Shown piece by piece: positions 4,877 through 10,889 of a stretch of 64,000 nucleotides of DNA (position 1 is its first letter; every line of letters begins with the position of its first letter). The notes under the pieces were generated by a model. It ran no database searches. It was not told where the DNA came from and saw nothing but the letters and a program-made list of their open reading frames with translations. Origin of the DNA: Acidimicrobiia bacterium (lineage in GTDB: Bacteria > Actinomycetota > Acidimicrobiia > Spongiisociales > UBA11373). The stretch is from contig JBBDMM010000002.1 of assembly GCA_040878325.1 (NCBI GenBank), positions 35,773-99,772 on the forward strand. Reading direction: 5' to 3'. The position numbers and the translations under genes are program-made.

Positions 4877-5641
4877 CTACTTCGGGCCCATACGGGCACC
4901 GGCGTCGAGCCGGATCACCTCTCCGTTCAAGAGGGGGTTCTCGACGATGTGCGCCACCAGGGCGGCGAATTCATCGGGGTTACCCAGGCGCTTGGGGAAC
5001 ACGTGGATCTGGGCAAGCTGCTCTTTGAGATCGGGACTGGCCGCATCGAGCAGCGGGGTGTCCATGATCCCCGGAGCGATGGTCATCACCCGGATCCCCT
5101 GCGACGCCAGGTCCCGGGCAAGCGGGAGGGTCATCGCGGCGATGCCGCCCTTCGAGGCGGAGTAGGCCGCCTGACCGATCTGCCCCTCGAAGGCGGCGAT
5201 CGAAGCGACATTGACGATCACGCCTCGCTCGCCATCCTGATTCGGCTGGTTGGCGGCCATCACCTTGGCGGCGCGACGAGCCACGTCGAACGAGCCGATC
5301 AGGTTCACCCGGATCACGAACTCGAAGAGCTCGAGCGGGAAAAGGTCGCCGTCGCGCGTGATCACCCGATGAGCGGGCGCCACCCCCGCCGCATTGACAC
5401 ACAGGTCGAGACCACCCAACGCCTCGCCGGCGTGGGCCACCGCAGCCTCGACATCCGCCGGCGAAGTGACATCGGCGGCGACGAACACTCCGCCGAGTTC
5501 AGCGGCGACCGATGCGCCACTGGAAGACTCGAGATCGAGCACACTCACCGAGGCACCGCGAGCTGCCAGCCACCGGGCGGTGGCCCCGCCGAGCCCGGAG
5601 GCCCCGCCGGTGATAAGGGCTCGCAATCCATCGAGTTTCAT
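4877..5641 (-). CDS. SDR-family dehydrogenase, 3-hydroxyacyl-CoA dehydrogenase (HSD17B10) type
   Basis: A 254-residue Rossmann oxidoreductase that probably oxidises 3-hydroxyacyl-CoA with NAD+ in beta-oxidation. It has TGGASGLG cofactor binding near residues 10-17, NAAG near 85, and a catalytic Ser-Tyr-Lys set in NVASIAAF...AAYSASKGG (S about 146, Y about 159, K about 163). The stretch HVFPKRLGNPDEFA and the C-terminal NGEVIRLDAG are typical of the HSD17B10-like subgroup. The ATG at 5641 was chosen because GGAGGATT sits just upstream and MKLDGLRALITGG is the expected N terminus; a longer in-frame extension runs into repeat DNA. Substrate assignment is by family resemblance. Confidence 0.85.
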   Translation of the reverse strand: MKLDGLRALITGGASGLGGATARWLAARGASVSVLDLESSSGASVAAELGGVFVAADVTSPADVEAAVAHAGEALGGLDLCVNAAGVAPAHRVITRDGDLFPLELFEFVIRVNLIGSFDVARRAAKVMAANQPNQDGERGVIVNVASIAAFEGQIGQAAYSASKGGIAAMTLPLARDLASQGIRVMTIAPGIMDTPLLDAASPDLKEQLAQIHVFPKRLGNPDEFAALVAHIVENPLLNGEVIRLDAGARMGPK

Positions 5642-9524: not shown

Positions 9525-9710
9525 TCAGCTCTTGGTGGGCTGCGGAATGCGGGCGGGCCGGGGTACCGGCTGGAAATGGGTCCAGCAGAGTTCGTTCTTG
9601 TTGTACGACGAGATCCGCGTGGTGCAGCCCTGGTGGATGCACACCCGCTGTCCCCCGTACGTCTTGCGGGGTCGGCCCCCAGTCAACTTCGAGATCGAGT
9701 GTTGGCTCAC
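9525..9710 (-). CDS. Small zinc-binding-like protein (CxxxxC...CxxH)
   Basis: A 61-residue basic protein with VCIHQGC (C-x4-C) and ELCWTH (C-x2-H) about 12 residues further on, which looks like a compact zinc site around the conserved-looking core TRISSYNKNELCWTH. The C terminus is Pro/Arg-rich (FQPVPRPARIPQ). The start is GTG at 9710. Similar short CxxxxC...LSxYNxxxxCxxH proteins occur in actinobacteria to my recollection, with no defined role; a nucleic-acid-binding role is a guess. Confidence 0.65.
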   Translation of the reverse strand: MSQHSISKLTGGRPRKTYGGQRVCIHQGCTTRISSYNKNELCWTHFQPVPRPARIPQPTKS

Positions 9711-9912
9711 GCCCTAACGATGCCATGAACCAGCAAGTTGTTCAAAGTGGCCGGAGGCGCAATGAGCAAAGGGGTGAACGGGTCCGAAGGGGTCTGGGGA
9801 CTCTTGCGGAAGGCGGAGGGCGGAAGGCCGCCCGGACGACATGGGCCGGCCGGCAGCAGAAAGCCCTCTCTTATGGCACAATTCCGCCACGGAGAAAGGA
9901 GGTGGTCCACAC

Positions 9913-9957
9913 GTGATTGACAGTATTCGCAGGACTCCGGAGGTGGTCGGGCGCTGA
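9913..9957 (+). CDS. Possible 14-codon leader peptide with extended Shine-Dalgarno
   Basis: Bases 9893-9908 (AGAAAGGAGGTGGTCC) are complementary to nearly the whole anti-Shine-Dalgarno tail of 16S rRNA, with one G-U pair. Nine bases after the AAGGAGGT core, a GTG opens a 14-residue reading frame (MIDSIRRTPEVVGR) that stops at 9955-9957, where the first of three hairpins begins. No larger plus-strand gene follows, so this may be a free-standing small transcript. Upstream, 9711-9892 shows nothing else I can support. Whether the peptide or the RNA matters is unknown. Confidence 0.35.
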   Translation: MIDSIRRTPEVVGR

Positions 9958-10055
9958 GCGGCCACGGGGTGGCCGCTCCCGGGTGCTGAACCCGGACGTG
10001 GCGACTCCAACCTGGACCACCGGAATCGGGAGGCCCGTGAGCTGGTCCCTCACGG
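9957..10055 (+). other. Cluster of three hairpins (candidate structured RNA or terminator)
   Basis: Three perfect stems follow one another: AGCGGCCAC/GTGGCCGCT (9957-9977, GGG loop), CCGGGT/ACCCGG (9979-9995, 5-base loop) and CCGTGAG/CTCACGG (10035-10055, 7-base loop). The first overlaps the stop codon of the 14-codon ORF by one base. The last reaches the 3' end of the convergent gene at 10050. Confidence 0.45.
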
Positions 10056-10889
10056 CGGCGATGACGCCGAAGTGCCTCCCGGTTCTTCATTTTCAGGGGC
10101 GTGGCGGATTCTCGCCCCCAGGTACAGGGGCACCCCCTGCCACAGCACCATCAGCGCGCCGGCGACCACCAACACCCACCCGGCGATCGGTCGCCAGCGG
10201 TCGAAATCACTCTCGGCCCTTCCCACCGTGCCGCGGGCCTCGTCCACCCCCACCCGGTATTCCTCGAAGAGGACCGCCGCCTCGGCGAACTCCGCCTGCA
10301 TCTGACCGAGGCTCGCCTCGATCTGGTCGAGGCTTTCCCGTACCGCAACCAGGTTCGTGCGCCCCTCATCGAGGAGCCGTCCCTGCTCACGCAGGCTCTC
10401 GGGAACCTCCGCCAGTGAGAGGTCCATCTGCCGGAACGCCTCACCCAGCGTCATCTCGGAGTCGAAGCCGATCCCGAATATCGCCAGTGCCTCGATGGTG
10501 CGGTCGAGCACGTCGGCGACCTCGATCAGACCCGGAAACGACCCCTGTAGCGCGTCGAAGCTGTCCGCAAGGTCTACGCCGATGACTCCGGACATGTCGG
10601 TGAGCGCCGTCTCGAAGTCGATCAGGCCGTTGCGGAAGTCGTCCATCCCCTCATCGACGGAAGCAAGGCCTTCGTCGGCGGCGGAAAGAATCGACTGGGC
10701 CGTATCGATGCCTTCGGCGGTGGACTCGAGGACGTCGGCGACGATGGCGGTGCCGTCACCAACATCGTCGGTCAGGCCCAGCACCACGAAGCCGAGCACG
10801 ACCACCGCGACCCCGACAACGATGCCGGCGATGCCGAGCGCGGTGAACCCCCACCCGAGATAGCGGCCCCCCCATTCGTTGTCAGGCAT
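10050..10889 (-). CDS. Membrane-anchored coiled-coil protein of unknown function
   Basis: A 279-residue protein with one N-terminal membrane segment (about 14-38, GIAGIVVGVAVVVLGFVVLG) and one near the C terminus (about 232-252). The long region between is helical, with repeated Asp/Glu/Leu heptad character (for example LDQIEASLGQMQAEFAEAA). With two membrane segments, the central coiled coil is probably extracytoplasmic and both ends cytoplasmic, or the reverse. No catalytic motif is seen. I do not recognise the family; the architecture recalls septum- or envelope-associated scaffolds, but that is only an impression. Confidence 0.65.
   Translation of the reverse strand: MPDNEWGGRYLGWGFTALGIAGIVVGVAVVVLGFVVLGLTDDVGDGTAIVADVLESTAEGIDTAQSILSAADEGLASVDEGMDDFRNGLIDFETALTDMSGVIGVDLADSFDALQGSFPGLIEVADVLDRTIEALAIFGIGFDSEMTLGEAFRQMDLSLAEVPESLREQGRLLDEGRTNLVAVRESLDQIEASLGQMQAEFAEAAVLFEEYRVGVDEARGTVGRAESDFDRWRPIAGWVLVVAGALMVLWQGVPLYLGARIRHAPENEEPGGTSASSPP

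Follow-up and report, generated by a model that had tools for sequence, protein, structure and literature searches.

In the 64,000-nucleotide stretch of DNA that we analysed as a whole (the window), the plus strand carries a small RNA gene of about 200 nt, which is very probably a homologue of the actinobacterial RNA Ms_IGR-5 (Rfam RF02471), and in which a short reading frame preceded by an extended Shine-Dalgarno sequence (SD) is threaded through a complex fold (Table 1). The alignment of the relatives' copies sets the limits of the conserved unit at 9888/9889 and 10088, and the unit is longer than the 9893-10055 outlined in a preliminary description of this DNA. The element has a GC content of 0.68, its region folds better than shuffled sequences do (fold z-score -3.4), and R2, the broader of our two covariance models, matches it with 143.1 bits (E 2e-34) as its sole match in the 64 kb; by blastn and by R1, the first model, the genome to which the window belongs has one copy only. 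Wobble changes such as C-G to U-G are seen among the aligned copies, and on their account the RNA was assigned to the plus strand. In the relatives, a conserved TGTGSCANNAT-like block precedes the element by about 7 nt, and the RF02471 consensus starts at the position equivalent to the transcription start predicted here (ACACAAGGAAGG). The next downstream gene of the window, a membrane-protein ORF (10050-10889), lies on the minus strand, in line with the earlier claim that there is no plus-strand gene to regulate downstream; its 3' end overlaps the 3' domain of the RNA in antisense at 10050-10088. Just upstream of the RNA, also on the minus strand, a 61-codon ORF (9525-9710, MSQHSISKLTGGRPRKTYGGQRVCIHQGCTTRISSYNKNELCWTHFQ...) shows a Cys/His pattern like that of a small zinc-binding protein.

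Table 1. Features of the small RNA locus, numbered from the first letter of the window.
Feature	Position	Strand	Details	Basis
Small RNA gene	9889..10088	+	about 200 nt; probable Acidimicrobiia-type Ms_IGR-5 homologue	covariance model R1, 191.4 bits
-10-like promoter element	9877..9882	+	CACAAT; likely transcription start A9889	inferred
P0, 5' strand	9890..9894	+	partner 9935-9939; encloses SD and start codon	
Extended SD	9893..9908	+	AGAAAGGAGGTGGTCC, complement of the entire 16S 3' tail	duplex prediction, alignment
Mini-ORF, 14 codons	9913..9957	+	GTG start 9913, TGA stop 9955-9957; MIDSIRRTPEVVGR	frame conserved, peptide not
Pseudoknot, 5' strand	9932..9936	+	GGACT, codons 7-8; partner loop 10044-10048	
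P0, 3' strand	9935..9939	+	CTCCG, inside the ORF, codons just before GAG GTG; partner 9890-9894	
P1, 5' strand	9942..9950	+	GGTGGTCGG, inside the ORF	covariation
P2, 5' strand	9952..9956	+	overlaps stop codon; partner 9999-10003	covariation
P3 hairpin	9957..9977	+	perfect, right at the stop codon	in relatives with altered sequence
P4 hairpin	9979..9995	+	perfect, variable among relatives	relatives' alignment, pairs listed
P2, 3' strand	9999..10003	+		covariation
P1, 3' strand	10012..10021	+	CTGGACCACC, A10016 bulged	covariation
P5a, closing helix of 3' domain	10027..10081	+	10027-10034 with 10074-10081	compensatory changes in 8/8 pairs
P5b hairpin	10035..10055	+	perfect; loop CTGGTCC holds pseudoknot 3' strand, 10044-10048	covariation
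P5c hairpin	10056..10069	+	fourth hairpin	covariation

The preliminary description had noted that the SD matches almost the full anti-SD, far beyond what normal genes need, and the pairing is in fact complete: the 16-nt 3' tail of the 16S rRNA is paired throughout (16/16, one G-U among them), with a predicted duplex energy of -27.8 kcal/mol versus -10.1 for the seven-base SD AAGGAGG. The string AGAAAGGAGGTGRTCC occurs only twice in the 2.21-Mb genome, once at this locus and once on the strand antisense to the 16S 3' end; about 0.002 occurrences would be expected by chance. Since the extraction of copies by pattern presupposes the SD and the GAGG, invariance of the SD counts only for the copies found by covariance model. 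In the order to which the window belongs, the lowest-energy fold pairs the SD with GGACCACC and reaches -104.4 kcal/mol, versus -77.3 for the conserved nested fold with the pseudoknot left out, so that in this order the RNA could often be inaccessible to ribosomes; the 3' strand of P1 can pair with the SD instead (GGTGGTCC), mostly in this order. A family-wide switch that would sequester the SD through GGACCACC was considered and rejected: the perfect 8-bp pairing is present in 47 of 209 copies, mostly from the window's order, and we found no covariation of this pairing. Such sequestration is a possibility for that lineage only.

A blastn search with the element recovered it in 45 of 59 relatives of the same order, with one copy in nearly every positive genome, so the arrangement of SD, start codon and hairpins for which the preliminary description had proposed searching related genomes is indeed present there. 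With our first covariance model, R1, a single copy was found in 196/395 genomes of the class and in 91/296 of the phylum, and R2 raised the latter figure to 117 of the 296 actinobacterial genomes sampled (about 40%). About half of the class genomes lack the RNA, among them the single-contig genome G004, of the same family as the window, in both the blastn and the R1 searches; the RNA can therefore be lost and is not essential everywhere.

The helices P1 and P2 and the three-way 3' domain (P5a-c) are supported by the alignment, with 94% of cells paired, 16 pairs showing compensatory change and a covariation score that exceeds every shuffle and every slide; P1, for instance, occurs as GGTGG/CCACC, GGTGA/TCACC and GGTGC/GCACC. 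P0 has at least 5 of 6 positions paired in 177 of 205 copies, compared with a mean of 65 and a maximum of 85 in shuffles that do not preserve relatedness, and it passes a slide control as well, in which 0-15 copies pair at other registers. The pseudoknot, between GGACN and an NGTCC in the loop of P5b, is fully paired in 121/196 copies (mean 81, maximum 98 in shuffles of the same kind), and base 3 of the ACN codon tracks the loop base. The three perfect hairpins reported before correspond to P3, P4 and P5b and are joined by a fourth, P5c; the long-range helices and the pseudoknot, which tie the ORF into the fold, had not been seen, and the covariation check that had been proposed for the stems supports P1, P2, P5a-c, P0 and the pseudoknot. 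As the ORF runs through the pseudoknot, P0, P1 and P2, a translating ribosome has to open them in turn, and its stop is located inside P2, with hairpin P3 adjoining. Variation also occurs in the variable loop of the RNA, where a copy from a Mycobacterium MAG (L243, about 5050-5180) has a tandem duplication (CCGCTGAACGTCAGTGAAGCGGTCGAT..).

The 14-codon frame whose stop touches the first hairpin holds as it had been described, and our analyses show that it is under clear selection as a reading frame of 12-15 codons. In each of 209 distinct copies we looked for a start codon that follows GGAGG by 5-13 nt, in phase with the window's ORF and with no stop ahead of the core, and confined the tests to the stretch outside the SD and GAGG letters fixed by the collecting pattern. 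An ATG, GTG or TTG start stands in the right frame in 163/209 copies, and any of seven start codons in 204/209; the other two frames give 5 and 3 copies with the three start codons and 17 and 4 with the seven, and shuffling of the variable stretch gives a mean of 22 (maximum 37) and of 51 (maximum 71), respectively. The stops TAG, TGA and TAA are all in use, at one structural place. The distance between the SD and the start codon varies with the codon: ATG is mostly found at a spacing of 11, GTG at 10, TTG at 9-10, and CTG and ATC/ATT/ATA at 8. Start strength and spacing are correlated with a rho of -0.80 among 157 representatives, and of -0.69 (P=2e-5) among the 31 representatives left by a coarse identity cut. 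Weaker start codons thus lie nearer to the SD, so that initiation strength looks tuned, which suggests that a moderate rate of initiation is under stabilising selection. S. aureus is known to hold initiation low by an extended SD combined with AUU or AUA starts (PMC13009471).

What is kept in this frame is not the peptide. In codons 2-5, the synonymous share of single-base differences is 0.219, versus a neutral expectation of 0.199. In the xGG and xGC codons base 1 is free and bases 2-3 do not change, the opposite of what selection on a peptide produces, and the fixed positions of the ORF are those of the helix strands. No synonymous change was seen in GAG GTG in 203 copies, a count that the collecting pattern favours, and in one copy (L136) its change to GAG GCG is paired with a change of CACC to CGCC on the opposite strand. 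Four copies (L129-L132) lack the usual frame and, like L317 and L321, read GGAGGTG in another one, with start and stop retained; the resulting peptides, compared by hand from the printed sequences, are unrelated (ISDHSGGGSS, MQQDCGGGSS, MLKTSGGDCR and others). The copies L129, L130, L131, L132, L317 and L321 amount to a natural experiment on peptide independence. The peptide sequence is not selected, and of the peptide gene suggested by the preliminary description the reading frame stands and the peptide does not. A dual-function sRNA with a functional peptide was also considered and rejected, as neither the codon statistics nor the frame-shifted lineages show purifying selection on a peptide.

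To which family does this RNA belong? A search of the window at Rfam gathering scores returned no family, only sub-threshold matches, and RF02471, with a cut-off of 45 bits, misses the element, its best matches in the same genome lying elsewhere at about 10 bits. Nevertheless, R1 finds the distant copies L106 (E 5e-15), L113, L110, L101 and L105, and RF02471 calls the same five at identical coordinates with 45.5-97.9 bits, the highest being L106. The window's RNA shares with Ms_IGR-5 the 5' extended SD, the GGAC..GAGGTGGC..CGCTAG core and the GCGAA(U)UCC box, and it contains every part of the RF02471 consensus core (extended SD, GGAC, GAGGTGG..CGCTRG, GCGA.TCC and a paired 3' domain); it differs in its 3' domain and in P4. 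Since intermediates link it to a family whose cut-off it fails, we file it as a divergent variant of Ms_IGR-5, a kinship to a known RNA family that the preliminary description did not see, and we hold with high confidence that it is a homologue carrying a selected, peptide-independent ORF. Rfam treats the family as non-coding, with a structure that has neither P0 nor the pseudoknot and in which the 3' strand of P1 is left unpaired. Published RNA-seq data include homologues of S. lividans (PMC8079986), one of the small-RNA transcription units of S. avermitilis is a homologue (PMC8780764), and the M. smegmatis homologue overlaps a detected sRNA (PMC10454040). Ribosome footprints cover the homologues of M. 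abscessus and M. smegmatis, with the caution that in the same work many classical ncRNAs were footprinted without clear evidence of translation (PMC4974804). We found no functional study of Ms_IGR-5 in the literature searched.

We propose, as the reading that on balance we favour, that this RNA is a structured mini-mRNA that engages ribosomes and whose fold translation opens; it is probably transcribed and translated in this organism. The SD, held in the loop closed by P0, would pair with the whole 16S 3' tail and capture a 30S subunit. A start that is weak by design (here GTG with a spacing of 10) would then let the ribosome go slowly into the 12-15 codon frame, in whose second half it would open the pseudoknot, P0, P1 and P2, to stop inside P2 beside the hairpin. 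Evolution retains the start, the frame and the stop but lets the peptide drift, and so the useful event would be the capture or the passage of a ribosome rather than the product. What the output might be is a more tentative matter. 6S RNA occupies RNA polymerase until the synthesis of a short throw-away product RNA ends the occupation. The RNA could, by analogy, occupy 30S subunits and free them by making a throw-away peptide, as a ribosome-side counterpart of 6S RNA; the ribosome-binding decoy named in the preliminary description is in this way our preferred output, as a possibility well short of even, and such a decoy must be abundant. Still more speculatively, the synthesis of a fold-melting peptide, by emptying the captured 30S, might make the RNA report or limit the free initiating ribosomes. 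The likeness would reside in the proposed logic alone, which 6S RNA and the mycobacterial Ms1 share, namely a machine that is occupied by substrate mimicry and released by a short product; the machines differ (RNA polymerase for 6S RNA, the ribosome as proposed here), there is no sequence or structural similarity, and 6S RNA (RF00013) has no Rfam match in the window.

The computed data fit equally well a trans-acting regulatory sRNA in which translation of the mini-ORF serves as a sensor, opening P1, P2 and the pseudoknot and thereby exposing or destroying a stretch able to pair with target mRNAs. The threading of the ORF through P0, P1, P2 and the pseudoknot means that translation must alter the fold, and the tuned start and the stand-alone gene would also suit such a regulator; however, the only near-invariant single-stranded stretch in the alignments is the SD itself, with no separate conserved unpaired seed to be seen. 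We therefore consider this sensor a serious but minority reading and prefer the decoy. If the RNA were antisense to the 3' end of the 16S rRNA, as a maturation check or processing aid with an incidental ORF, its complementarity over all 16 nt of the tail, far above the needs of initiation, would be accounted for, but the conservation of frame, start codons and stop does not allow for an incidental ORF, which makes this reading very improbable. Slightly less so, and still unlikely, is a structured mRNA that encodes a functional micropeptide (consensus ..EV(A/T/V)x(R/C)): the frame is conserved and the C-terminal EV nearly constant, but EV is always encoded as GAG GTG, which P1 requires, the other variation tracks RNA pairing rather than amino acids, and neutral codons 2-5 and frame-shifted lineages that keep start and stop with peptides as unrelated as ISDHSGGGSS and MLKTSGGDCR speak against it.

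The short ORF followed by hairpins has the classic layout of a cis-acting leader or attenuator of an adjacent gene, but among 199 loci the ORF that follows the RNA shares its strand in 96 and lies opposite in 93, no neighbour family recurs in more than 20 of the 199, and the window itself has its next gene on the minus strand. We rejected this candidate, to which we leave hardly any weight; the RNA gene is stand-alone, in a neighbourhood that changes freely. This bears out the earlier suggestion of a free small RNA, as do the homologues already published as small RNAs (PMC8079986, PMC8780764). That chance hairpins and a chance SD have met in a GC-rich intergenic region, where a GC content of 0.68 makes hairpins easy to form, is practically negligible in view of the conservation and covariation across the phylum; the preliminary description had taken a lack of conservation of SD, ORF and stems as the result that would speak against its own reading, and the relatives gave the opposite. 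The probability not taken by the decoy and the sensor goes to peptide roles, rRNA-related roles and unlisted alternatives.

Our results show that an RNA found phylum-wide, and filed as non-coding and of unknown function, carries a selected frame with an unselected peptide, behind an SD complementary to the 16S tail over its full length and with start strength and spacing that compensate each other. Together these properties make its function directly testable, and they point to a sensing or limiting of translation initiation. To our knowledge, there is no established bacterial example of such a control. The corrected structure, with P0, P1 and the pseudoknot, also allows family members missed by Rfam to be found.

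Some features of this plan are present in other systems. SgrS/SgrT, RNAIII and leader peptides likewise place a short translated frame in a small structured RNA (translation being predicted here), but SgrT and the RNAIII peptide are conserved, unlike the peptide of the window's RNA, and leader peptides have a downstream gene, which this RNA lacks. A tmRNA would have a tRNA-like domain and a tag ORF, and ARAGORN finds none in the window. The infC (AUA), ccpN (AUA) and cvfC1 (AUU) genes of S. aureus show the same combination of a long SD-anti-SD duplex and a weak start (PMC13009471); there, however, the extended SD starts protein genes, and here a 12-15 codon frame in a stand-alone structured RNA. 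The alphaproteobacterial sRNA CC2171 of Caulobacter (RF01867) has at its 5' end GAAAGGAGGUGAUCCA, the same anti-SD complement, followed by a 3' terminator hairpin. RF01867 scores 15.6 bits on the window (E 0.37, cut-off 75), with equally weak matches elsewhere in the genome and no shared core shown, and CC2171 may show the same plan, by convergence or as a distant case.

Rfam lists the Ms_IGR-5 family as actinobacterial only. In four contigs from Acidobacteriota MAGs (L189, L217, L229 and L237) the SD is accompanied by a frame that starts with ATG and has REVADC or something similar at its end, and by a P1-like partner, and R2 scores three of the four near E 1e-7. As the pattern used to find them already prescribes part of the core, their kinship to the RNA family is likely rather than proven. 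A viral origin of the element was rejected, since all ten IMG/VR matches to the SD-ORF pattern, read individually, proved to be without it. In L189 and L229 a strong terminator follows the mini-ORF. A further contig labelled as an Acidobacteriota MAG (L193) has a typical actinobacterial copy and is probably mis-binned.
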